35,469 nucleotides of DNA from positions 1-35,469 of IMG/VR virus record IMGVR_UViG_3300006737_000085; one strand, 5' to 3'. The position numbers and the translations under genes are program-made. Shown one piece after another: positions 3,086 to 33,938 of the stretch. The notes under the pieces are model-generated. The model was not told where the DNA came from. It searched no databases and was given only the letters and a program-made list of their open reading frames with translations. Each line of letters begins with the position of its first letter. Within the stretch, counting starts at the first letter, position 1. Source of the stretch: a virus.

Positions 3086-4939
3086 ATGAACTTAGAAAAC
3101 AAAGTATTATCTGATTTGACAGTTTATATGAAATATGCTAGATTTTTGGAAGAAAAAAATAGAAGAGAAAATTGGGAAGAGTTGGTGACTCGTAATATGG
3201 AAATGCATATAAAAAAATTTCCAAATCTCGACACAGAGATAAGAGAAGTTTATAAAATGGTTTATGATAAAAAGGTTTTACCATCAATGCGATCGATGCA
3301 GTTTGGAGGAAAACCCATTGAGGTCTCTCCAAACAGAATATTCAATTGCGCCTATACTCCGGTTGACAACTACCATGTTTTTTCCGAGATTATGTTTCTC
3401 CTTTTGGGAGGCACTGGTGTGGGATTTTCAGTCCAGAGACATCATGTGAGTAAATTACCAGAAATCAGGAGACCATCCAACAAGAGTCGTAGGTTTTTAA
3501 TCGGAGACAGTATCGAGGGTTGGGCAGATTCAGTTAAAGCACTGATCCAATCTTACTTTAAAGGAACTTCCCGCCTTCGTTTTGACTTCTCAGACATCCG
3601 TCCAAAAGGCGCGAGACTAGTTACCTCCGGAGGTAAAGCTCCGGGACCACAACCACTCAAAGAGTGTTTAGTTAAAATAGAAGGAATATTAGATGAAAAA
3701 GATGACGGGGAACAACTTACTCCCATTGAGGTTCATGATATCGTCTGCTACATTGCGGATGCGGTTTTGGCTGGGGGCATTCGTCGCGCTGCTCTTATCT
3801 CCTTATTCAGTGCTGACGATGAAGAAATGCTCGCAGCAAAAGCAGGAAACTGGTGGGAACTCAACCCCCAACGAGGACGAGCCAACAATTCCGTTGTTCT
3901 TATGCGTCATCGTATTAATAGGGATACTTTTATGTCTATCTGGGATCGAGTTCGTGAGTCTGGATCTGGAGAGCCGGGTTTTTATTTTTCAAACGACAAA
4001 GATTGGGGAACCAATCCCTGCTGCGAAATAGGCTTAAGACCAAATCAATTCTGTAACCTCACAGAGGTTAATGTTAGTGATGTCTCGAACCAACAAGAGC
4101 TTGAAAAGAGAGTGGCTGCTGCGACCTTCATAGGCACCCTTCAGGCCTCTTACACAGACTTCCACTACTTAAGACCCATTTGGAAGCGAACAACGGAAAA
4201 GGATGCCCTTATTGGCGTTTCTATGACGGGTATTGCATCTGGTGGTGTTTTAGGGCTTGATCTAACAAAAGCGTCGTTAATAGTAAAAAGAGAAAACCGA
4301 AGAATTGCTATGCAAATTGGAATACGCCCAGCAGCAAGGACAACTTGTGTTAAACCTGCTGGAACGACCTCTTTGACCCTTGGGACTTCCTCGGGAATCC
4401 ATGCATGGCATAATGAATATTACCTCCGCCGAATTCGCGTAGGAAAGAATGAAGAAATCTATTCTTATTTGAAAACCAACCTACCAGAGCTAATTGAGGA
4501 TGATAAGTTTCGACCTCATGATACGGCTATAATAAAAGTTCCACAAAAAGCACCAAGTGGTTCAATAACACGTCATGAAAGCGCCTTGGATCTTTTAAGA
4601 AGAATTAAATTAATTTCTGAATCTTGGATCCAAGGAGGGCACCAAAATGGCCATAATACACATAATGTTTCTGCAACTGTTACCATTAAGCCCGACGAAT
4701 GGAAATGTGTTGGGGAGTGGATGTGGTTGAATAGAAAGTGCTACAATGGTCTGTCGGTTTTGCCTTATTCAGACCACAGCTATATTCAAGCGCCTTTTGA
4801 AGATTGCACCAAAGAAGAGTATGAAAGTCTACTACAATTTGTAAAAAGAATAAATTTGGATCTAATTACTGAAGACAAAGATGAAACAAATTTATCTGGT
4901 GAACTAGCCTGCTCTGGTGGTTCATGTGAAATTTTTTAG
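3086..4939 (+). CDS. nrdJ: Class II (adenosylcobalamin-dependent) ribonucleotide reductase, monomeric type
   Basis: A 617-residue RNR that makes deoxynucleotides. NCAYTPVD carries the first redox cysteine (C88). GGTGVGFSVQ and IRPKGARLVTSGGKAPGP match the monomeric RTPR group. NPCCEIGL carries the thiyl-radical Cys and the Asn/Glu partners, QFCNL the second redox Cys, and the tail LACSGGSCEIF the Cys pair that re-reduces the site. No small-subunit gene is adjacent, as expected for class II. It is somewhat shorter than the lactobacillar enzyme. The start follows a near-perfect TAGGAGGTGA site. It depends on coenzyme B12 from the host or environment. Confidence 0.9.
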   Translation: MNLENKVLSDLTVYMKYARFLEEKNRRENWEELVTRNMEMHIKKFPNLDTEIREVYKMVYDKKVLPSMRSMQFGGKPIEVSPNRIFNCAYTPVDNYHVFSEIMFLLLGGTGVGFSVQRHHVSKLPEIRRPSNKSRRFLIGDSIEGWADSVKALIQSYFKGTSRLRFDFSDIRPKGARLVTSGGKAPGPQPLKECLVKIEGILDEKDDGEQLTPIEVHDIVCYIADAVLAGGIRRAALISLFSADDEEMLAAKAGNWWELNPQRGRANNSVVLMRHRINRDTFMSIWDRVRESGSGEPGFYFSNDKDWGTNPCCEIGLRPNQFCNLTEVNVSDVSNQQELEKRVAAATFIGTLQASYTDFHYLRPIWKRTTEKDALIGVSMTGIASGGVLGLDLTKASLIVKRENRRIAMQIGIRPAARTTCVKPAGTTSLTLGTSSGIHAWHNEYYLRRIRVGKNEEIYSYLKTNLPELIEDDKFRPHDTAIIKVPQKAPSGSITRHESALDLLRRIKLISESWIQGGHQNGHNTHNVSATVTIKPDEWKCVGEWMWLNRKCYNGLSVLPYSDHSYIQAPFEDCTKEEYESLLQFVKRINLDLITEDKDETNLSGELACSGGSCEIF

Positions 4940-4948
4940 GAGAAAAAA

Positions 4949-5137
4949 ATGAGAGAGAGACTTGAAATAATTATAGAAGAATTAAAATCTGCTATGGGAG
5001 ATATTGATAAAGTTGAAAGTGGTTCTTATGGTTATAAGGCGGCAGCCCCTAGAGCAAGAAAAACAGCTTTAACTGCCATTAAAGAATTAAAAGAACTAAG
5101 ATTAGAGATTCAAAACAAGAAAAATTCTCATAATTAA
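4949..5137 (+). CDS. Small Hc1-like (histone H1-like) basic protein
   Basis: A 62-residue helical protein. SYGYKAAAPRARKTALTAIK followed by ELKELRLEIQNKK resembles the GNKAAAQRVR...KLEK.....RKES pattern of the bacterial Hc1/H1-like nucleoid protein family, and the length fits the phage short forms. The family binds DNA non-specifically and condenses it. Here that could mean handling replicating phage or host DNA, which is inference. It follows the RNR gene by nine bases with an AGGAG site and is the last gene before the groES promoter. An unrelated helical protein is possible. Confidence 0.5.
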   Translation: MRERLEIIIEELKSAMGDIDKVESGSYGYKAAAPRARKTALTAIKELKELRLEIQNKKNSHN

Positions 5138-5139
5138 TG

Positions 5140-5168
5140 TTGACAATTGCCTTTTAATGTGTTAATAT
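5140..5168 (+). promoter_or_regulatory. Sigma70-type promoter for groES
   Basis: TTGACA at 5140-5145, a 17-bp spacer and TAATAT at 5163-5168. It overlaps the last codons' downstream flank of the previous gene and drives the ATG at 5210. Confidence 0.82.
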
Positions 5169-5186
5169 ATTATATGTTAAAAGGCA
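5148..5186 (+). promoter_or_regulatory. Candidate operator: 10-bp inverted repeat around the groES -10
   Basis: TGCCTTTTAA at 5148-5157 is a perfect inverted match of TTAAAAGGCA at 5177-5186, with 19 bases between. The left arm lies in the promoter spacer and the right arm just after the expected start site. A dimeric repressor bound here would block the promoter. In RNA only the right arm would be transcribed, so DNA binding is the likelier function. It is unlike the CIRCE heat-shock element. Confidence 0.6.
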
Positions 5187-5209
5187 TTGGCTATATTAAT
5201 GGAGGGAAA

Positions 5210-5485
5210 ATGTATTTAGAGCCAAAAAATAGACATCTTCTGGTTTTACCACTAGAAGAAAAAAGTGAAAAATCTAAGATCATTCTACCGGATGATTATA
5301 AAAAACCGGAATCGCCTTACATCACCTGTGATGTTTTGGGGATCTCAAGCGATAGCACGATAGAAATTAGTATCGGAGATCGTGTTGTGATAGAAAGGAG
5401 AATGATACAAGAAGTAAAAGCAATGGGTGAAACTAATTACCTAGTGTTAGAAAATTACGTATATGGGAGATTACAGGATGAATAA
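5210..5485 (+). CDS. groES: GroES-like co-chaperonin
   Basis: Product of 91 residues, usual for GroES (about 95). It starts with a RHLLVLPLEEKSEKSKIILPD stretch matching the DRVLVK...E.KT.GGIILPD opening of GroES. IGDRVVIERR matches the VGDRVLF strand, and the end matches the YLVLEN.VYGRL closing strand. The segment between K and I of IILP, where the mobile loop would sit, is very short. T4 uses its own gp31 in this role to fold the capsid protein. A GroEL gene lies 25 kb downstream. The ATG at 5210 is preferred over an in-frame upstream ATG because GGAGGG lies just before it and the promoter covers the upstream region. Confidence 0.72.
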   Translation: MYLEPKNRHLLVLPLEEKSEKSKIILPDDYKKPESPYITCDVLGISSDSTIEISIGDRVVIERRMIQEVKAMGETNYLVLENYVYGRLQDE

Positions 5486-6305
5486 AGAAAATTTAAAAGA
5501 AATAATTAAACAGGTTATAATTGAGAACAACCAAAAGTCTGTGCTTTTAGAGAGCCCTGAACTTAATGAGGCAACTTTTGCAAAAGCAGCAGATTATATA
5601 GATAATAAAAAGGTTCCATTTTTTATTCTATCTGGTTTTCGTGGGGAGCGTGGATCAAAGTATAGTAGAAAAAATATTTCTGCTGCTTCTGAAGTCAAAG
5701 AGTTTCTAAAATCTAAAGGCCTATCTTACACGATTGTAGATGGTGGATATACTGAGAAAGTTCGCGACCAAGTAACAAAGCAGGACCTTAAAGACCCAGA
5801 AACAGGGGATCCGGTTTACAGCATAGAAGAGGAAGAGAGTTATCTTGTCTTCGGCGACGTGCCGCATTACGGAGACACTGCGAAGGCGGTAAAAAATGTA
5901 CAAAAACTTTTTGATATTGCTAAACAAGCAAGCGTTCTGGACTCATCAAACCCACAAGAAACATTCAGTTTTGGATATCCAGTGGACGTTACGGATCCTC
6001 AAACAGGAGAAACCACGCGTGAAATGCGCATTGCACTTTACAAGCCGAATGCCCCAACTTATGGCACCAAGCATATGTTCACAGCATGGGGTGGACCATG
6101 GTCATCATTTACAAAAATGATGTCAGACGTTGGCGCTTACACTAAGATCCGTGGAACCAAAGGGACTTTCGCCGAGGAAAAATTAGAGGAAGCCAAAAAT
6201 ATCAAAGTCAATAGTGTTTTAGATGGATATAGAAAACAACATCACGTTCAATATTGGACAAAAATGAAGGCTCGTTGGGATCACGAAAACAAAAAGAGGT
6301 CCTAA
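5478..6305 (+). CDS. Unknown protein with capsid-targeting-like leader
   Basis: Product of 275 residues. It begins MNKENLKEIIKQVIIE, a short amphipathic helix ending in an IIE site that fits the (L/I)xE cleavage rule of T4-type prohead proteases, then NNQK. After the leader comes ADYIDNKKVPFFILSGFRGE and a mixed alpha/beta region with SYTIVDGGYTE and EESYLVFGDVPHYGDT, suggesting a globular, possibly nucleotide- or sugar-binding fold that I cannot name. The start at 5478 overlaps the groES end by eight bases, with AGG just upstream. It could be an internal head protein ejected with DNA; this is inferred only from the leader. Confidence 0.7.
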   Translation: MNKENLKEIIKQVIIENNQKSVLLESPELNEATFAKAADYIDNKKVPFFILSGFRGERGSKYSRKNISAASEVKEFLKSKGLSYTIVDGGYTEKVRDQVTKQDLKDPETGDPVYSIEEEESYLVFGDVPHYGDTAKAVKNVQKLFDIAKQASVLDSSNPQETFSFGYPVDVTDPQTGETTREMRIALYKPNAPTYGTKHMFTAWGGPWSSFTKMMSDVGAYTKIRGTKGTFAEEKLEEAKNIKVNSVLDGYRKQHHVQYWTKMKARWDHENKKRS

Positions 6306-7019
6306 ATGTCTTATCAAAAAACAATCGACCTATACGGAGACGGAATAGGTAAGGTTCAATATATAGACCACATGGGCTCTGACCTCACGATCGTGAACAG
6401 CGCCCGTGTTTCATTTGGAGTTGAAAAGGAGGAACTAGATGCTCGAGATAAGAAACTTATTAATTACCTTGTTAAACACAGACACACGAGCACATTCGAG
6501 CACAATGTGGCTACCTTTAAGTTTATTGTTCCTTTATTTGTGCGCTCTCAGCACCATCGGCATCGGACATGGTCATATAACGAAATTTCCCGAAGATATA
6601 CAGACAAAGATCTTGCTTTTTATTGCCCAAATGCATTCCGTACACAGCATAAGTCCAATAGACAATCTTCTAACAAGGACGAAATAGATCCGGTTCTTTA
6701 TCCTGACCTATCTGACCCAGCATTCGGTATTGTCTGTAGTCAAGAACTCAGGTCTCATATAGGACGATCTGTTGTCTTGTTTGAAAATCTAATGGCAGCA
6801 GGAGTTTGCAGAGAACAAGCCAGAATGGTGTTGCCCCAGAATATGTACACAGAATATTATGGAACTGTGAATTTGAACAACTTATTAAAGTTCATAGGCC
6901 TAAGGGTCCATGATGGGGCCCAACAAGAGATCCAAGACGTTGCCTTGGCTTGCTTAGATATAGCCATTGATCTCTGGCCCACTGCTGTTGGTGCCTATAG
7001 GAACAACTCAGGTGTTTAA
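6306..7019 (+). CDS. thyX: FAD-dependent thymidylate synthase ThyX
   Basis: A 237-residue flavin-dependent enzyme that methylates dUMP to dTMP using methylene-tetrahydrofolate and NADPH. The ThyX signature is clear as RHRTWSYNEISRRY at residues 85-98. The upstream STFEHNVATFKF and downstream CREQARMVLPQNMYTEYYGT segments are also typical, the latter carrying the Arg of the dUMP site. Length is in the family range. The ATG follows the preceding stop codon directly, with AGAGGT as binding site. Together with the RNR and dUTPase in this window it supplies dTTP for phage DNA. Confidence 0.96.
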   Translation: MSYQKTIDLYGDGIGKVQYIDHMGSDLTIVNSARVSFGVEKEELDARDKKLINYLVKHRHTSTFEHNVATFKFIVPLFVRSQHHRHRTWSYNEISRRYTDKDLAFYCPNAFRTQHKSNRQSSNKDEIDPVLYPDLSDPAFGIVCSQELRSHIGRSVVLFENLMAAGVCREQARMVLPQNMYTEYYGTVNLNNLLKFIGLRVHDGAQQEIQDVALACLDIAIDLWPTAVGAYRNNSGV

Positions 7020-7254
7020 GAAGGGTGATTTATTTTTTCTAAACACAGAAGGTTTTATTCTATTTCAGCACATCGGAGGCGAAAATGGTATTATAATGAG
7101 CGACCCTTATCTGTTATTCCAGTGTGACTTTGATGATAATAGGGAGAACATACAGTTCACAGGCTACGATGTTTTAATAAAAGGGATACTATTTAAAGAA
7201 ATACCAGAAAAATTTTTAGAGAGAGTTACAAAAAATGAAAAAAATATTAAATGA
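7012..7254 (+). CDS. Hypothetical protein, 80 aa (GTG start)
   Basis: The frame continues upstream inside thyX, but GTG at 7012 is the likely start: AGGAAC lies about eight bases before it and it overlaps only the last codons of thyX. The product begins (f)MFKKGDLFFLNTEGFILFQHI. Alternating hydrophobic residues (GDLFFL, YLLFQCDF, VLIKGILF) suggest a small beta-barrel. There is no signal peptide or membrane helix and no family is recognised. Its 3' end overlaps the next gene by 20 bases. Confidence 0.6.
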   Translation: MFKKGDLFFLNTEGFILFQHIGGENGIIMSDPYLLFQCDFDDNRENIQFTGYDVLIKGILFKEIPEKFLERVTKNEKNIK

Positions 7255-10215: not shown

Positions 10216-10548
10216 GGGCTCGCAATGGCTTCGACGGGTTAGAATCAAGGAGAGAGTGCATGCAGGCGTGAATCAGCCTTAATCGTTCAAATTTTTATAA
10301 ACGCAAACAATAATTTGTATTTCGAAGAAGCCCTAGCGGCTTAATCGGGTGGCCGCTCCGAGCCATCTATCCAAGAGGAGCAAAACAACAGGACAGTTGT
10401 AAAAATCAAAACAACTCAACGCAATAGGACGGTAAGCGTTGTTTTATAGCCGTCTATCTTGCTGGTTGGAGAAATAATCAGATAAGCATGTGAATGACTC
10501 AAACTAAGACTAGCGCGGACAGGGGTTCGATTCCCCTCGAGTCCACCA
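10216..10548 (+). ncRNA. ssrA: Transfer-messenger RNA (tmRNA), one-piece
   Basis: The 5' end GGGCTCG pairs with CGAGTCC at 10538-10544 as a seven-base acceptor stem with one G-U. The characteristic TTCGACGGG follows near the 5' end. At the 3' end there is a T-arm, AGGGG-TTCGATT-CCCCT (10521-10537), and an encoded ACCA tail (10545-10548). Between lies a tag reading frame ending in ALAA-stop and a long helical/pseudoknot region. The length of 333 bases is a little below that of typical bacterial tmRNAs (about 350-400). It rescues ribosomes stalled on broken mRNA and tags the product for proteolysis. It is one-piece, not the permuted two-piece form. Confidence 0.95.
10303..10344 (+). other. tmRNA tag-peptide reading frame
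   Basis: From a GCA resume codon the frame reads ANNNLYFEEALAA then TAA. The ALAA end is the standard degron recognised by ClpXP and ClpAP. The resume position is inferred from the usual alanine codon and distance; the end of the frame is unambiguous. Confidence 0.85.
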
Positions 10549-10553
10549 CCTTT

Positions 10554-10626
10554 GCGGGTGTAACTCAGTTGGTAGAGTATCTGGTTGCCAATCAGATTGT
10601 CGTGGGTTCGAGTCCCATCACCCGCT
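10554..10626 (+). tRNA. tRNA-Gly (anticodon GCC)
   Basis: The acceptor stem GCGGGTG / CACCCGC is perfect over seven pairs. D-arm CTC-AGTTGGTA-GAG, anticodon arm TCTGG-TTGCCAA-TCAGA with GCC in the centre, and T-arm GTGGG-TTCGAGT-CCCAT all fold. The discriminator is T, as in bacterial tRNA-Gly. CCA is not encoded, unlike the tmRNA five bases upstream. The two RNAs are probably cut from one precursor. Confidence 0.95.
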
Positions 10627-10649
10627 CTTTTTTAAACTTGGAGGAAAAA

Positions 10650-11534: not shown

Positions 11535-11695
11535 CTGATCATGAGAAAAGGATTATAAAGGAATCAATTGAGGCTTACCAAAGAATGATAGATCGTTTCC
11601 AATCCAGAATCAACGAGCTTCGTTCAAAGATAACCACTGGTTGTTGCCAAGAGGTAAATAATAATTACAAACTGAAGATAAAGAGGATACAATGA
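11531..11695 (+). CDS. Hypothetical coiled-coil protein, 54 aa
   Basis: The ATG at 11531 overlaps the lipoprotein stop (ATGA). The frame extends further upstream, but this coupled start is more likely. The product begins MTDHEKRIIKESIEAYQ and is almost one long helix with heptad-like spacing (MIDRFQSRINELRSKI), then TGCC and a basic tail. Its TGA overlaps the clpS ATG. Function unknown. Confidence 0.6.
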   Translation: MTDHEKRIIKESIEAYQRMIDRFQSRINELRSKITTGCCQEVNNNYKLKIKRIQ

Positions 11696-11994
11696 CAAAA
11701 AAACAAAAGGATACTTTAGTAAAAGATAGAGAAAAACTAGGTCGCCCTAAGAAATATAAAGTAATTTTTTACAACGATGACTACACACCAATGGAATTCG
11801 TGACTTTGCTTATCATGGAAGTATTTAATAAGAGCGAAACCGAAGCAAAGAGCATTATGTTAAAAATACACAGAGGAGGTAAAGCAATTGCAGGAATCTA
11901 TTCAAAACAAATCGCAGAGACAAAAGTTGAAACAACAAAAATGTACGCCCAAGGAGCCGGCTACCCACTGTATGCAGAGGCCCAACCAGAATAA
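11692..11994 (+). CDS. clpS: ClpS adaptor protein
   Basis: A 100-residue protein matching ClpS along its length: KYKVIFYNDDYTPMEFV, MLKIHRGGKAIAGIYSKQIA and ETKVETTKMYAQGAGYPL correspond to the NDDYTPMEFV, IHxxGKAxxGxxxxxxAETK and A...G.PL signatures. ClpS binds N-degron substrates and hands them to the ClpA unfoldase. A flexible basic N-terminal tail of about 20 residues, needed for delivery to ClpA, is present. It lies about 1.1 kb after the tmRNA, and ClpP is encoded at 26.9 kb. No ClpA or ClpX is in the window, so the host unfoldase is the probable partner. Confidence 0.95.
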   Translation: MTKKQKDTLVKDREKLGRPKKYKVIFYNDDYTPMEFVTLLIMEVFNKSETEAKSIMLKIHRGGKAIAGIYSKQIAETKVETTKMYAQGAGYPLYAEAQPE

Positions 11995-12318: not shown

Positions 12319-12906
12319 ATGAGAACAGATTGGCAACTTAGAGAACACAATGATTTACATGAAATTCTGGCCCCCCTGATCAATTCTGGTGGGGCTGTTT
12401 TCGCAGTAGTGTACACTTTAAGCACAGAAGAGTGGACACAAGATTCGGATAGGACTACAACACGCCTTCTTAAGCTAATGACCAAGAATTACAATTTCAG
12501 AGAGAGTAAGGTCTATTGGTGCCTAAGGTTATTGAAAGAGTGTGGTGCACTTAGGGGGTTCGAAGAAAACATAGGGAAACAATTTAAAAAGAAAGATAGG
12601 CTACCAAAAAAAACGACACCAAAAACCTGTGGCATTTATGGTATATTTGAAGGAAAAAATGTTTACGTTGGCCTGAGTTCTGACATTGAAAAGAGATTTG
12701 TTGCCCACAAAACGCAACTTGAAAGAGGAACCCATCCATACTCGAAATGTTTTTCAGAGGTTAAAAACTTGGAATTTAAAATCATAAAGGAATATAAAAA
12801 GTCTCAACTAGAAAAGAAAGAACCACTTCACGCACAAGTGTTGGCAACTAAAGGATATAATGTTGTTAATAGCAACAATTTTAATTTAATATTGGAGGAC
12901 AAATGA
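12319..12906 (+). CDS. GIY-YIG domain protein
   Basis: Product of 195 residues. The C-terminal half (about 105-185) has CGIYGIFEGKNVYVGLS followed by DIEKRFVAHKTQL, i.e. the GIY...(V)YVG strands and the Arg/His helix of GIY-YIG nucleases. The later ...EKKEPLHAQ region supplies a possible catalytic Glu and YNVVN the Asn. The second element is YVG instead of YIG. The N-terminal part has a TRLLKLMTKNYNFRESKVYWCLRLLKECG stretch that looks helical and may be a winged-helix DNA-binding domain. It overlaps the SprT-methyltransferase gene by four bases. It could be a homing-type or repair nuclease. Confidence 0.72.
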   Translation: MRTDWQLREHNDLHEILAPLINSGGAVFAVVYTLSTEEWTQDSDRTTTRLLKLMTKNYNFRESKVYWCLRLLKECGALRGFEENIGKQFKKKDRLPKKTTPKTCGIYGIFEGKNVYVGLSSDIEKRFVAHKTQLERGTHPYSKCFSEVKNLEFKIIKEYKKSQLEKKEPLHAQVLATKGYNVVNSNNFNLILEDK

Positions 12907-13982
12907 AATATATATGGAACTACGCTTTTAGCTATTTTATGAGAAAGTATTGGGACAATAAATACAGATCTGTGTCTGTATTCTTAAGGGAAATGGATGA
13001 TGACATGTTAGGAAACTACCGTCATGACGAACTGGGCTGCAATAGTATTTTGTTAGCCTCCAACCAAGGCTTATCAGAAAGACAAATGTTGGGCGTCTTG
13101 TTGCATGAAATGTGCCATCACGTTGTATATGAAGAATACGGCATGGAAGTTGATGGGCATGGTTCAGAATGGACAGCAGAAATGAAAAGAGTGGGGTTTG
13201 AAAATCCTGATTGCTTCTCTAACGGAACAGAATTCTTCTCAGAAGCAGACCACAAAGAAATACTTCGAATGCTCCGAGGTGAAATACAAGATTTTGAATG
13301 CACAGACTCCTTATCTTTGATGAAAAAAATGGAAAAGAATTGTGTCGATTTGGTCCTAACAGACCCACCATACATTATTAGCAAACCATCAGGCTTCAAG
13401 AGCGTGGTTAACGGAGAACAACGTTTTGCTGTATCAACTGAGCACGGAGAATGGGACAAAGAGGAAAATTTTTCTTTGGAAGATTTGCGAGATTCGGTAA
13501 AAGAATATTATCGTGTTCTTAAGAAACATGGAACAGCCATAATTTTTTGTGACCTCTGGAAAATCAGTGATGTAAAGCGAATAATGGAAGAAGCCGGGTT
13601 TAAACAAATTCGCTTCATCGAATGGCTAAAGACAAACCCAGTCCCTCTTAATTCCGGTCGTAATTATCTTAGCAACGCTAGAGAGGTCGCTCTCCTAGGC
13701 GTAAAGGTCAGCAAGCCCACGTTTAATTCGAAATACGACAATGGAGTGTATCGTTTCCCTATCTGTCACGAGAAAGGAAGATTTCACCCAACACAAAAGC
13801 CCTTGGCGTTTATGGAAGCCTTGATCAAAAAACATAGCAAACCCGCAGACGTGGTATTGGACACATTCGCCGGCTCAGCAGCAACGCTGCTCGCCGCCAA
13901 AAATTTGCAACGTGGCTTCATTGGGTGCGAACTAGACGAGGAATTCTTCGATAAAGCGGAAGAAAGACTCTTCAGATCCTAA
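12903..13982 (+). CDS. SprT-like metalloprotease fused to DNA methyltransferase
   Basis: A single 359-residue frame carries two domains. Residues 1-105 form a SprT-like zinc protease: the HEMCHH motif gives HExxH at 68-72 and HGSEW (86-90) the third ligand. Residues 112-359 form an amino-methyltransferase: VDLVLTDPPY with catalytic DPPY at 154-157, HPTQKP, and DTFAGSAAT (320-328) for SAM binding, in the motif order of the beta/gamma-type DNA methylases. SprT/SPRTN proteins digest proteins crosslinked to DNA; the methylase marks adenine or cytosine. The join is continuous, with no stop or frameshift visible. GGAGGACA precedes the ATG. Confidence 0.85.
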   Translation: MKYIWNYAFSYFMRKYWDNKYRSVSVFLREMDDDMLGNYRHDELGCNSILLASNQGLSERQMLGVLLHEMCHHVVYEEYGMEVDGHGSEWTAEMKRVGFENPDCFSNGTEFFSEADHKEILRMLRGEIQDFECTDSLSLMKKMEKNCVDLVLTDPPYIISKPSGFKSVVNGEQRFAVSTEHGEWDKEENFSLEDLRDSVKEYYRVLKKHGTAIIFCDLWKISDVKRIMEEAGFKQIRFIEWLKTNPVPLNSGRNYLSNAREVALLGVKVSKPTFNSKYDNGVYRFPICHEKGRFHPTQKPLAFMEALIKKHSKPADVVLDTFAGSAATLLAAKNLQRGFIGCELDEEFFDKAEERLFRS

Positions 13983-22360: not shown

Positions 22361-23251
22361 ATGAAATTAAGCAATTTATTTTTAAATAACCCTGCTATCT
22401 TCAAGCATGCACTAGAGAACGCCATGGTTATGAAGGTTGCCACTGATTCGCCGCAAGCGGGTGGAGTAACGATTGAAATGAACAGTGAAGAGGTTGCAAA
22501 TAAAATGTTGCAATCAATGTCTGCGCCATATATTTGTTTAACTAACAAAGGAATTGAGAGAGCCATGAAACGCTCGTGGTCTTTTGATTTCTCTTCAGTT
22601 AAAGCAAAGAATTATGATGCATTTAAAAAAACAATAAAGACTTCTGACAACATTGCCTCGTCAGCAGATCTTTATCTATTCAAAATTGGTGATAAACTAA
22701 CCTTGGTAGATGCAGAGAGTTTTAAAACATCCACTAGTGATTCCACAGGAAAAATTTATCTTCACAATGATGCTGACGGTACAATTTATGACGGTGTCGA
22801 ATCCAACAAACATCCGGACTTTGGACAAGTTTTAATGCTTAACTTTTCACCAAAAACAGGTATTTGCGACGTTTATTATACAGATGGTAAAATGTCATCT
22901 TTTACTGGTCTTTTTAAGAAGCCAATCATAAAAGAAGGTGAACTGCAATATCACGGGAAAAACCTAAAGAAGAAGTCCGACATGTCCGTTGCGACAGGAG
23001 TCAACAGAGTCTTGGTTAAAATAATCAATCGGAAAAAGAAAAAGAAAAAAGAATCTGGAGAAGATCTGGCCAACACTTCTTTTACTAGAGGGGTTTTGTT
23101 AGATAAAGGATTTCTATCAGTTCTAGCCAAAAGAGGTGTTATCAAAAAGTTTTATTCATTTAAGATCGATTTTAACAGATTAGAAGAAGATGATTATCTT
23201 CGAAGATACCCACAATTATGCAAGGAGGCAGCAAATGACAACGCAGCGTAA
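22361..23251 (+). CDS. Hypothetical protein, 296 aa
   Basis: The ATG at 22361 follows GGAGGACACA; an upstream in-frame ATG overlaps this site. Residues 1-200 look mixed alpha/beta (YICLTNKGIERAMKRSW, DLYLFKIGDKLTLVDAESF, GQVLMLNFSPKTGICDVYY). A very basic patch NRKKKKKKES lies near 226-236 and could contact nucleic acid. There is no membrane segment. No family is recognised. It overlaps the downstream methyltransferase gene by 17 bases, so the two are translated together. Confidence 0.75.
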   Translation: MKLSNLFLNNPAIFKHALENAMVMKVATDSPQAGGVTIEMNSEEVANKMLQSMSAPYICLTNKGIERAMKRSWSFDFSSVKAKNYDAFKKTIKTSDNIASSADLYLFKIGDKLTLVDAESFKTSTSDSTGKIYLHNDADGTIYDGVESNKHPDFGQVLMLNFSPKTGICDVYYTDGKMSSFTGLFKKPIIKEGELQYHGKNLKKKSDMSVATGVNRVLVKIINRKKKKKKESGEDLANTSFTRGVLLDKGFLSVLAKRGVIKKFYSFKIDFNRLEEDDYLRRYPQLCKEAANDNAA

Positions 23252-24191
23252 ACAAATAAACAATGAACAGTTCTTTACGAATTTTGAAACAGCCGAGAGG
23301 TTAGCAAAAGTCATAGAAAGCCAGCCATGGTTTTCAAACATCACAAAAGTGATAGAGCCTTCTGCTGGTGACGGTGCTTGGCTCAAGGCTATGAAGGTTG
23401 ACGAGGCTTATGACATTGAACCCCAACATCCCAATGTAGCCCTGCAAGATTTTCTGGATCCCAAGTTTACAATTAAGCGCGAGGGTTCAATCCTCTCCGT
23501 GGGTAACCCGCCTTTTGGAAGAATGGGTAAGCTAGCTAAATGTTTTATGCATCGGTGTGCCGAGTATTCGGACTACATCGCGTTTATTCTCCCTGCATCT
23601 TTTGCAAAAGTGACACAAATAAGACAATTACCGGAATACTTTCATCTTGTTTACCAAGAAGATCTCCTCGAGGAGACTTTTAGATTCGAACGTGATGGCA
23701 AGAAGGTGTCAACCGTCTTTCAAATTTGGGAGCGTCGTGATGTCAAGCGGATAGACCCACCGAAAAAGAATACGTGTTCTGATTTTGGCTGGTCTCGAAT
23801 AGCAGAGGTGTCCTATGGTAGTGTTGCAAATCAAATCATGACACTCCTTGATCTAGAAGATACTGACGCTAAAAAGAAAATGATTGCTTTAATGAAAGAA
23901 TCTTTATCCCAAAGAGCAGCACCCGTTCCCAAAGATGCAGACTTAGCTATTTGCACACATGGCTCCGGAGCCGGTAAAGTTTATCTAAAAAACTTTGACA
24001 AAGTGTCATCTAGGACTCATAGATTTATTAAGATTAAATCAAAGATTACCAAGGAAGTCCTTACCAAAAGACTTCGGTCTTTAGATTACGATAGTATAAT
24101 GAAATATACCGTTGGAGCCACCTGTGTTTCAACAGAAGAGATAGTTTATCTCTACACACAGAAATATCCGGAGGAGCAATGCAACACTTAA
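23235..24191 (+). CDS. N6-adenine-type DNA methyltransferase
   Basis: Product of 318 residues starting at ATG 23235, with AAGGAGG eight bases upstream. NEQFFTNFETAERLAK is the typical entry of this class. VIEPSAGDGAWL is the SAM-binding motif I and SVGNPPFGRMGKLA holds the NPPF catalytic motif IV of N6-adenine methylases, in that order. The remainder has FILPASFAK, common in phage members. No restriction enzyme gene is adjacent, so it probably protects phage DNA or regulates. Target sequence unknown. This is the second methylase in the window after the SprT fusion. Confidence 0.88.
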   Translation: MTTQRKQINNEQFFTNFETAERLAKVIESQPWFSNITKVIEPSAGDGAWLKAMKVDEAYDIEPQHPNVALQDFLDPKFTIKREGSILSVGNPPFGRMGKLAKCFMHRCAEYSDYIAFILPASFAKVTQIRQLPEYFHLVYQEDLLEETFRFERDGKKVSTVFQIWERRDVKRIDPPKKNTCSDFGWSRIAEVSYGSVANQIMTLLDLEDTDAKKKMIALMKESLSQRAAPVPKDADLAICTHGSGAGKVYLKNFDKVSSRTHRFIKIKSKITKEVLTKRLRSLDYDSIMKYTVGATCVSTEEIVYLYTQKYPEEQCNT

Positions 24192-26891: not shown

Positions 26892-27512
26892 ATGCCTAAA
26901 AAGAAAACGAAAGAAAAAACTGAAGAAGTAGAGGAGACCCAATCGGTTGTAGAACTACTTCAGACACTAGAAGGAAAGCCCTCCCCAGAACAAAGAAGCA
27001 TAATGTTTGTAGGGGAATTGACAGAAGAGAAAGCAGCAGATCTGATTTCGGCCTTACTAGTTTTGTCCCAAGACAAAACCGGAGATAGCGAAAGAGCAGA
27101 TGATATTAAACTTTACATTTCAACCTATGGGGGCTCAGCCCATGAGATGTTTGGGATCTATGATGTTATGAATTTTTGTAAAGGTTTTTGTGATATAGAG
27201 ACAATCGGTATTGGAAAAGTCATGTCAGCCGGGACACTACTGCTAGCAGCAGGAACACAGGGAAAAAGAAAGCTCGGGAAACACTGTCAGGTCATGATCC
27301 ATTCTGTCAATGGTGGATCAATCGGAGAACTTCATAGTTTAGAAAACGAAATGGAACAAATGAAAAATTTACAAGACACTTACATTCAGTGCCTCTCGCA
27401 AGAGACTAGTATGACAAAAAGGCAAATACAGAGACTAATTAATAGAAAAGTAAATGTTTATTTTTCAGCAACGGAAGCCGTTGAAAAAGGGTTAGCAGAT
27501 GGAGTATTATGA
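26892..27512 (+). CDS. clpP: ClpP-like serine protease subunit
   Basis: Product of 206 residues. DIKLYISTYGGSAHEMFGIY, GIGKVMSAGTLLLAAGTQGKR (nucleophile Ser112) and CQVMIHSVNGG (His137) are the ClpP core. At the third catalytic position, where the family reads RD.FLSA, this protein has VNVYFSATEA, placing Asn188 in place of Asp by my alignment. The first 20 residues are lysine/glutamate-rich and replace the usual N-terminal loop. ClpP forms a two-ring protease that works with ClpX or ClpA; neither is here. Its TGA overlaps the next ATG. Confidence 0.9.
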   Translation: MPKKKTKEKTEEVEETQSVVELLQTLEGKPSPEQRSIMFVGELTEEKAADLISALLVLSQDKTGDSERADDIKLYISTYGGSAHEMFGIYDVMNFCKGFCDIETIGIGKVMSAGTLLLAAGTQGKRKLGKHCQVMIHSVNGGSIGELHSLENEMEQMKNLQDTYIQCLSQETSMTKRQIQRLINRKVNVYFSATEAVEKGLADGVL

Positions 27513-30626: not shown

Positions 30627-30655
30627 TTGACAAACCTTTGACAAGAGGTTATATT
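30627..30655 (+). promoter_or_regulatory. Sigma70-type promoter for groEL
   Basis: TTGACA at 30627-30632, a 17-bp spacer, TATATT at 30650-30655. The start region has ATTAT-AATAA-ATAAT. AACCT (30633-30637) and AGGTT (30646-30650) form a weak inverted repeat in the spacer. TGGAGG serves the ATG at 30677. Confidence 0.86.
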
Positions 30656-30676
30656 ATAATAAATAATGGAGGAAAA

Positions 30677-32245
30677 ATGAAACATTATGACCAAGGACAA
30701 ACTCTCAACCAAAAGATTCTGGAGGGAGTTGACATTCTTGCGGATAATGTTGCAACCACTCTCGGTCCTCGAGGGCGGAATGTAGCACTATACCACAAAG
30801 AAGAGAATCTACCTGTCATCACCAAAGATGGTGTGACAATTGCAAAGTTCATTGAACTTGAAGATCCGTTCCAAAACCTTGGAGCACAAGTTATTAAACA
30901 AGCAGCAGAAGAAACAGTAAACTCTGCTGGCGATGGAACAACTACTGCAACCGTATTGGCTCGTGCGATCCTAAAGGAAGCACAGAAGTATATGACAGCA
31001 GGTGTATCTCCTGTTGAACTAAAACGCGGAATGGACAAGGCTGTTGATGTTATCACAGAGAAACTAACAGAAATGTCGAGACCTATCCAAACAACCGAAG
31101 ATATAAGACACATCGCTACAATCTCTGCCAATAACGATAAATCCATCGGTCAGCTTATTGCAACCGCCATTGACAAAGCAGGAAAAGATGGATCAGTCCT
31201 TGTTGAAGAAGCTCGAAGCATGAAGACTTCATTGGATCTCATAGAGGGCTTCAGGTTTGACTCTGGCTACGTTAGTAATTCATTCATAACGGATGCCAGA
31301 ACTGCCACAGTGGACTATGATAACCCTATTGTTTTGGTAACCGATGAGAAGATTGAGCATGTTGATCAAATCATGCCAACTCTAGAACTTGCAGCCAGAG
31401 ATAACCGTCCTCTCGTAATTGTTTCGAATGATATAGAAGGACAGGCCTTGGCTGCTTTGATTGCAAATGCAGCAAGGGGCACAATGAAAATTTGCGCTAT
31501 AAAAGCTCCGAAATATGGTGAAGAACGCAGAAGTATAATGAAAGACTTATGCATCAGTACTGGTGCGACTTTCATAACCCGTGAGAACTCTTTGACCCTA
31601 AATGATATAAAGTTAAATCATTTCGGTCAGTGTAATCGAGTTAATGTAACAAAAACTTGGACAACATTAGTTGGAGGAAAAGGTGATAATAGCAAAATTG
31701 ATGAAACGATTGAAACAATTAAAGCACAAATACACCAAACAGACAACCTATCTGAGTGCGAACGACTTCAAGAACGTGTTACTCGCCTTGCAGCAGGAGT
31801 CGCAGTTATCAAAGTCGGTGCACAAACCGAAATAGAAATGATTGAAAAGCGTCATCGGATCGATGATGCACTAGAGGCTGTCCGCTCTGCGCAACAAGAA
31901 GGGATCGTCCCCGGTGGCGGCATCGCTCTACTCAGAGCAACTAAAGATTTGTTTGTAGAGACCGAAAATGAAGAACAGAACTTGGGAGCCCAAGTGGTCC
32001 TTAGGGCATGCGAGGTTCCACTGAGACAAATGGCAATTAATGCCGGAGAATCACCAGATATTATTTTAAAAAATGTTAAAGAACAGCCGATTGAAAGAGG
32101 GTACGATTTTCTTAATAGAACTATGATAAATACTTATGAAGTGGGGATAATAGATCCCTGCAAGGTCACAAAGTGTGCTTTGAAAAATGCAGCTTCTGCT
32201 GCTGGTACTTTATTGACCACTTCTCATGCTATTGTAGCGTCTTAG
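30677..32245 (+). CDS. groEL: GroEL chaperonin
   Basis: Product of 522 residues from the ATG preceded by GGAGG; an upstream ATG in frame lies inside the promoter and is rejected. LGPRGRNVAL, KDGVTIAK (about 50-57) and AGDGTTTATVLA (84-95) are the ATP site; the hinge/equatorial VGAQTEIEMIEKRHRIDDALEA and GIVPGGGIALL follow. The apical region FRFDSGYVSNSFITD aligns with the GYLSPYF substrate-binding segment. The tail lacks the usual GGM repeats, ending TTSHAIVAS. It would fold phage proteins with GroES encoded at 5.2 kb. It is divergent from bacterial GroEL but the ATPase residues are kept. Confidence 0.97.
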   Translation: MKHYDQGQTLNQKILEGVDILADNVATTLGPRGRNVALYHKEENLPVITKDGVTIAKFIELEDPFQNLGAQVIKQAAEETVNSAGDGTTTATVLARAILKEAQKYMTAGVSPVELKRGMDKAVDVITEKLTEMSRPIQTTEDIRHIATISANNDKSIGQLIATAIDKAGKDGSVLVEEARSMKTSLDLIEGFRFDSGYVSNSFITDARTATVDYDNPIVLVTDEKIEHVDQIMPTLELAARDNRPLVIVSNDIEGQALAALIANAARGTMKICAIKAPKYGEERRSIMKDLCISTGATFITRENSLTLNDIKLNHFGQCNRVNVTKTWTTLVGGKGDNSKIDETIETIKAQIHQTDNLSECERLQERVTRLAAGVAVIKVGAQTEIEMIEKRHRIDDALEAVRSAQQEGIVPGGGIALLRATKDLFVETENEEQNLGAQVVLRACEVPLRQMAINAGESPDIILKNVKEQPIERGYDFLNRTMINTYEVGIIDPCKVTKCALKNAASAAGTLLTTSHAIVAS

Positions 32246-33307: not shown

Positions 33308-33595
33308 ATGAAATATTATAAAATTATTTGTTGGAATGAGTGCCCCTTTTGTTTACGAGCAAAAATGGAAATGATAGAAAGATCACTGCCCTTTGAATAC
33401 TGCTCAATCGATCACAGCAACCAGATGTTAGTATATTATAAATCTATTTATAAACATGAAACCGTACCTATGATTATCGAAATTGATAAATTGACAGGGC
33501 AAGAAAAGTTTATTGGAGGGTTTACAGATCTTATCAAGTACTTCAGAAAAGGAGACATTAAAACAAAAGTTTGCTCTCTTGATGGAGAGGGCTGA
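33308..33595 (+). CDS. Glutaredoxin-like protein
   Basis: Product of 95 residues. KIICWNECPFCLRAK contains the CPFC redox pair, HETVPMIIEID the cis-Pro strand, and FIGGFTDLIKYF the GG...L helix of glutaredoxins. It could reduce the class II RNR C-terminal cysteines or other disulfides. The first 10 residues make the initial beta strand, so no signal peptide. It lies two bases after the previous gene with GAGGAT upstream. Confidence 0.9.
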   Translation: MKYYKIICWNECPFCLRAKMEMIERSLPFEYCSIDHSNQMLVYYKSIYKHETVPMIIEIDKLTGQEKFIGGFTDLIKYFRKGDIKTKVCSLDGEG

Positions 33596-33938
33596 ATATG
33601 ATTTCAATGTTAGTGTGGAGTTCACTAATGGAGACAATTCGTTTTGGATACCTACGCCCAAAGAAGAACTTGAAGACCTAGACTGCTTTGGGATAATAGA
33701 CATAGGTGATGACCAAGATGATTTTGAAAAATTAATTTCTTTAATTCATGAAATCGGACATGTTATATTCGAAAATAATAAAATGTCAGAACACCGAAGA
33801 ATAAAACTATTTGAAGAATCACTAGCATGGCACCTTGGATATGACTATGCCCTGAGTAACGGAGTAGAGATAGACACTGGTGAATATGCTGAAAGAGTTG
33901 AGATCGCTCTTAATTTATATGTAAAGGAGATAAAATGA
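33582..33938 (+). CDS. HExxH zinc metallopeptidase-like protein, 118 aa
   Basis: SLIHEIGHVIFENNK holds the HExxH motif (HEIGH), and FEESLAWHLGYDYAL downstream supplies a possible third-ligand Glu, as in IrrE/ImmA-like (M78) or related peptidases. The frame reaches back into the glutaredoxin gene; ATG 33582 is the nearest methionine start but has no good binding site, and a GTG at 33615 with GGAGAGG upstream is also possible. It overlaps the next gene by four bases. The peptidase activity and target are not shown. Confidence 0.62.
   Translation: MERAEYDFNVSVEFTNGDNSFWIPTPKEELEDLDCFGIIDIGDDQDDFEKLISLIHEIGHVIFENNKMSEHRRIKLFEESLAWHLGYDYALSNGVEIDTGEYAERVEIALNLYVKEIK

Follow-up and report, generated by a model that had tools for sequence, protein, structure and literature searches.

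A SprT-like protease and a DNA methyltransferase joined in one conserved gene of large, uncultured phages

In this study, we analysed a metagenomic virus record (IMG/VR IMGVR_UViG_3300006737_000085; the whole stretch of 35,469 bases is referred to as the window) and characterized a gene that joins a SprT-like protease to a DNA methyltransferase. The gene and its features described here lie on the plus strand. Direct reading reveals a GGAGG ribosome-binding site at 12894-12898, followed by a single open reading frame (ORF) at 12903-13982 that encodes 359 aa, starts with ATG and contains no internal stop. The SprT-like part spans residues 1 to about 128 (12903-13286) and matches PF10263 over residues 9-100 (E 2e-10, 40.8 bits against a gathering cut-off of 25.6). 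It carries the zinc-binding and catalytic HExxH motif as HEMCH (residues 68-72; 13104-13118), and the SprT signature is completed by a third zinc ligand, His86 in GHGSEW (13158-13160), which corresponds to HGPEF of SPRTN in the alignment with 6mdw. H68, E69, H72 and H86 are invariant in an alignment of 14 SprT proteins, and by profile and motif the protein is predicted to be a PF10263 SprT-like protease. The remaining residues, 128-359 (13284-13979), make up a predicted beta-class DNA amino-methyltransferase, matched by PF01555 (N6_N4_Mtase) over residues 148-354 (E 2e-36, 126 bits against a cut-off of 26.7) and by the fold of a structural model. Its catalytic DPPY motif (residues 154-157; 13362-13373) is invariant in 58 aligned methylase sequences and precedes the SAM-binding FAGS motif (residues 322-325; 13866-13877), in which G324 is invariant and F322 nearly so; this order is that of the beta class. 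The initial annotation, which had described a protease with HExxH at residues 68-72 and a DPPY/FAGS methylase running in one frame, is thus borne out, and the frameshift or stop between the domains that it named as a possible refutation was not found in the ORF.

The SprT half resembles SPRTN only remotely in sequence. The best match of this part to a solved sequence is human SPRTN (6mdw), at a weak E of 0.05, and the PHROGs families that it matches are annotated as of unknown function (phrog_6361, E 1e-7). It shares with SPRTN and SprT the HExxH motif with a third His in HGxE(F/W), a small single catalytic domain and a suspected DNA context, but it sits before a DNA methylase and has no detected zinc-ribbon tail. 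Indeed, zinc-ribbon families are absent from the Pfam matches of the fused protein up to E 1, and the 26 bits for the NCBIfam full-length SprT model fall short of its cut-off of 175, where PF10263 membership does not require a zinc ribbon and full-length SprT/SPRTN is the narrower definition. The protein therefore appears to lack the C-terminal zinc ribbon of SprT or zinc-binding subdomain of SPRTN. An AlphaFold2 model built from 58 sequences, namely fused proteins and methylases, with the stand-alone SprT rows left out since they were misplaced when mixed in, reached a mean pLDDT of 79 and a pTM of 0.66, compared with a mean pLDDT of 46 for a prediction from only 10 sequences. Model helices at residues 59-79, over the HExxH motif, and 88-96 fit the motif positions, with pLDDT of about 80-90 there; the mean falls to 65 at the junction (residues 121-130). 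Searches with Foldseek and VIA returned only methylases among the matches listed.

For the methylase half, profile and fold searches agree on M1.HpyAVI, CcrM and MboIIA as the closest solved relatives. Model residues 127-359 superpose on CcrM (6pbd) with Z 26.7 and 2.3 A over 206 residues and on M1.HpyAVI (5hfj) with Z 25.9, which identifies a Rossmann methylase fold in the model. The half shares the DPPY-then-FAGS order with these beta-class enzymes (Z 24-27 overall) and with phrog_67 and phrog_498, the phage DNA methyltransferase families that it matches in PHROGs, and it differs from them in carrying an N-terminal protease domain. Its SAM motif reads FAGSA in place of the common FxGSG, a variant also seen in unfused relatives such as L016. 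The methylase is most likely of the N6-adenine type, which the DPPY motif favours and to which the nearest solved relatives belong. No restriction endonuclease was found in the five neighbouring ORFs scanned, and all of the top 25 PADLOC models that the fused protein hits describe methyltransferases; judged by the need for a cognate endonuclease, the locus does not appear to be a restriction-modification system. The class assignment also bears on an early suggestion that the fusion clears the methylase's own adducts. C5-cytosine methylases form a covalent enzyme-DNA intermediate, whereas amino-methylases of the DPPY class act by base flipping and form none, which makes removal of self-adducts unlikely.

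Immediately upstream, a GIY-YIG ORF (12319-12906, plus strand; PF01541, E 1e-5) shares the four bases ATGA (12903-12906) with the start of the fused gene, as the initial annotation had noted. The ORF has a weak match to a homing-endonuclease profile. The fused locus L007 has a GIY-YIG gene in the equivalent overlapping position, with an extra zinc-finger-like N-terminus, and four other fused loci (L001, L003, L006 and L008) have no ORF of at least 90 aa directly upstream. The proposal that this neighbour contributes a third DNA activity is not confirmed, since it is present in only some relatives, and a functional three-gene unit that includes GIY-YIG was rejected for the same lack of conservation. 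The GIY-YIG genes look like mobile endonuclease genes that use ATGA junctions and stand outside the unit.

The fusion gene is real and conserved in a family of large, uncultured phages. An IMG/VR scan with the fused protein yielded 29 loci, and a profile scan of all loci retrieved placed both domains in one frame in nine contigs only, the window and L001-L008. These eight derive from several metagenomes, on contigs of up to 192 kb, and encode proteins 71-88% identical to the query over the full length (those of L005 and L006 are identical to each other), with H68, E69, H72, H86, DPPY and FAG kept in every one. The identical frame in eight other metagenomic contigs excludes a chance or sequencing fusion, and an artefact of assembly or frameshift was likewise discarded because those contigs come from other metagenomes. 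Nei-Gojobori counts gave a median pairwise pN/pS of 0.21 for the SprT half, where synonymous sites are mostly saturated, and 0.15 for the methylase half; both halves are thus under purifying selection, with the SprT half evolving faster. Beyond this clade, no fusion was found among more than 70 homologous viral methylases. One phage record covers 80% of the query, yet a true SprT half is unlikely there, as tblastn with the SprT half found nothing in phage records at E 0.01. In 299 genomes of one bacterial phylum, none of the matches listed spans both halves, and we found no report of a SprT-methylase fusion in the open-licence literature searched. What is new is the combination of two known families.

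The two proteins also occur apart. On the 120-kb contig L010, a 126-aa SprT protein (3233-3613), which aligns end to end with the SprT part of the fused gene, is followed 1.4 kb further on by a separate methylase (5019-5711) that is 85% identical to that of the window. The insert between them (3610-5022) holds a GIY-YIG gene, a 112-aa ORF and an HNH/recombinase-like ORF, the last combining HNH-like zinc residues seen by eye with a sub-threshold recombinase match, and ATGA overlaps occur at the SprT end and at the methylase start. The last ORF of the insert ends like the GIY-YIG gene of the window (TTGGAGGACAAATGA). L009 encodes the methylase alone, with SprT absent across 58.9 kb. Physical linkage of protease and methylase is therefore not essential. 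Of the condition that homologues always be encoded as two genes, offered initially as grounds for rejecting the fusion, the "always" fails on the eight fused contigs and the two-gene arrangement is found in L010.

The junction suggests how the fusion arose. At 13275-13289 the window reads CGAGGTGAAATACAA (RGEIQ), an apparent relic of a methylase ribosome-binding site and start codon, which aligns by position with GGAGGAGAAATG in fused L007 and with GGAGGACAAATG before the methylases of L009 and L010. More fully, the L007 junction reads GGAGGAGAAATGGATATTTTT, against GGAGGACAAATGAATAT at the start of the separate methylases; at this position most other fused genes carry (C/A)GAGGNGA(A/G)AT(A/C). 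The RGE-I/M residues would thus be translated from what was once the ribosome-binding site and start codon of an independent methylase gene, and because the GGAGGACAAATG of the relatives is read through in frame, the fusion looks like a collapsed two-gene operon. For the methylase family as a whole, the unfused arrangement is probably the older one, since single methylases fall outside the fused clade in trees. Within the group, fused L007 branches outside L009 and L010 (at a node not starred), and an AU test did not reject a single fused clade (p 0.41). L010 may accordingly be ancestral and never fused, or the product of a later split, as may L009; the trees are compatible with either history.

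A search that used the SprT alignment as query recovered stand-alone SprT genes from further phage contigs as well as from a single contig of a metagenome-assembled Methylococcaceae genome. In L051, L052, L053 and L056, a Mre11-Rad50-type gene of about 1049 aa, which combines the Mre11/SbcD phosphoesterase and Rad50/SbcC ATPase parts, lies downstream of SprT, either immediately or with one small gene in between. A DnaG-type primase lies upstream of SprT wherever the region is covered (L051, L052 and L054-L056; L054 and L055 cover the primase-SprT-Mre11-Rad50 block only partly), preceded by an ORF that is RuvC-like by eye, with no Pfam match. The RuvC-like ORF, DnaG-type primase, SprT and Mre11-Rad50 (SbcD-SbcC) fusion form a conserved phage block, for example at L051:4233-9503. 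ClpS is also present in the primase/SprT region of L054, and the 202-kb phage contig L050 carries two different SprT genes (1807-2217 and 6586-7056). PF01555 methylases are absent from the stand-alone SprT records of these sister groups. In three records of the window's clade, fused G001 and G006 and unfused G010, Mre11-Rad50-type homologues (50-52%) lie near the primase with no SprT in between, and each record has exactly one SprT domain, the fused one in G001 and G006. Microcystis phage Mel-JY01 has only a short hypothetical ORF, and no annotated SprT, between its primase-like gene and a distant Mre11-Rad50-type gene. These neighbourhoods suggest that the SprT family of these phages is associated with genes of replication and recombination, except in one clade, where a methylase takes their place. 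The position of the sister-phage SprT between primase and Mre11-Rad50-type gene supports a possible role in DNA repair or replication and is an independent hint of a phage-borne crosslink-repair kit. Given that the neighbourhood is a property of the sister group and not of the fused gene itself, its support for a DNA-linked protease role of the SprT half is indirect.

In animals, SPRTN is a main protease acting on DNA-protein crosslinks, and it cuts DNA-crosslinked proteins when it is itself on DNA; to our knowledge, the roles of its many bacterial and phage relatives have been little tested. Our favoured model, to which we give a probability of about 40%, is that the fused gene encodes one bifunctional protein in which a SprT protease tethered to DNA removes bound or crosslinked proteins from the phage genome and the other half provides protective methylation. 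The C-terminal half, judging from its family, would act as an orphan beta-class methylase whose marks at a short site on phage DNA would shield that DNA from restriction. The N-terminal half would be a zinc protease of the SprT/SPRTN type, without the zinc-ribbon tail through which such proteases usually bind DNA. As no SprT zinc ribbon is detectable, the methylase could serve as the DNA-holding module; the protease would then stay on double-stranded DNA and cut proteins bound covalently or tightly to the phage genome, which would allow replication and methylation to proceed. Protease activity, tethering and substrates are all predictions of this model. Together with its unfused counterparts as controls, the fusion offers a direct way to ask whether a phage SprT acts on DNA-bound proteins and whether holding it on DNA makes it work.

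Ranking close behind is the possibility that operon collapse brought no functional coupling, each domain working alone in a fusion kept for co-expression. The junction is in keeping with this: it reads like a former methylase ribosome-binding site and start in frame, with hardly any linker. The same two proteins are unfused in L010, the protease is missing from L009, and the tree needs no more than one fusion, a single fused clade not being rejected by the AU test. A free methylase could even still be made in L007, which retains GGAGGAGAAATG in frame. However, the other fused genes no longer have the internal ATG, and the fusion has lasted in eight distinct sequences long enough for synonymous sites to approach saturation, with no splitting except possibly in L010.

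A role in counter-defence or host takeover is possible but less likely. The SprT half would here cleave restriction enzymes, nucleoid proteins or other host proteins bound to phage DNA, while the methylase protects the sites, giving one anti-restriction protein with two arms. In phages, methylases of this kind probably act against restriction, and the window has a ClpS gene some 0.9 kb upstream of the fused gene. Stand-alone SprT-like peptidases of the same family occur in jumbo phages, some of which also carry ClpS; the available text of the survey that describes them proposes host proteins as their targets, lists ClpS as a phage adaptor and mentions no methylase fusion (Iyer et al. 2021, PMC7824862). 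Plasmid ArdC, which overcomes type I restriction, likewise unites a SPRTN-like zincin and a DNA-binding module within one mobile-element protein, but that module is an ssDNA-binding domain instead of a methylase, and the third metal ligand is Glu where the fused protein has His (PMC7213743). The precedent is mixed, since the ArdC effect did not need the protease active site and cleavage of HhaI was not seen (PMC7213743). The Mre11-Rad50/primase neighbourhood of stand-alone SprT also points away from counter-defence and towards repair. Less probable again is a sequence-addressed protease, whose methylase would scan for its recognition site and put SprT on proteins at unmethylated sites, destroying competing restriction enzymes or blockers. 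Least probable of all is a self-cleaving pair, in which the SprT half would cut near the junction to free or inactivate the methylase and so time methylation during infection; the short junction, the lower model confidence at residues 121-130 and the established autocleavage of SPRTN would suit it, but the sequence has no evident cleavage site and no sign of autocleavage.

Elsewhere in the window, a second small HExxH protein (HEIGH) is encoded at 33513-33938, and an ORF at 23190-24191 has an NPPF motif resembling that of N6-adenine methylases; neither has a Pfam match at E 0.001. ClpS (11692-11994) and a ClpP-like protease (26892-27512) are both confirmed by Pfam, and an apparent GroEL was recognized by eye at 30638-32245. 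A tmRNA gene (tag ANNNLYFEEALAA) followed by a tRNA-Gly gene occupies 10216-10627.
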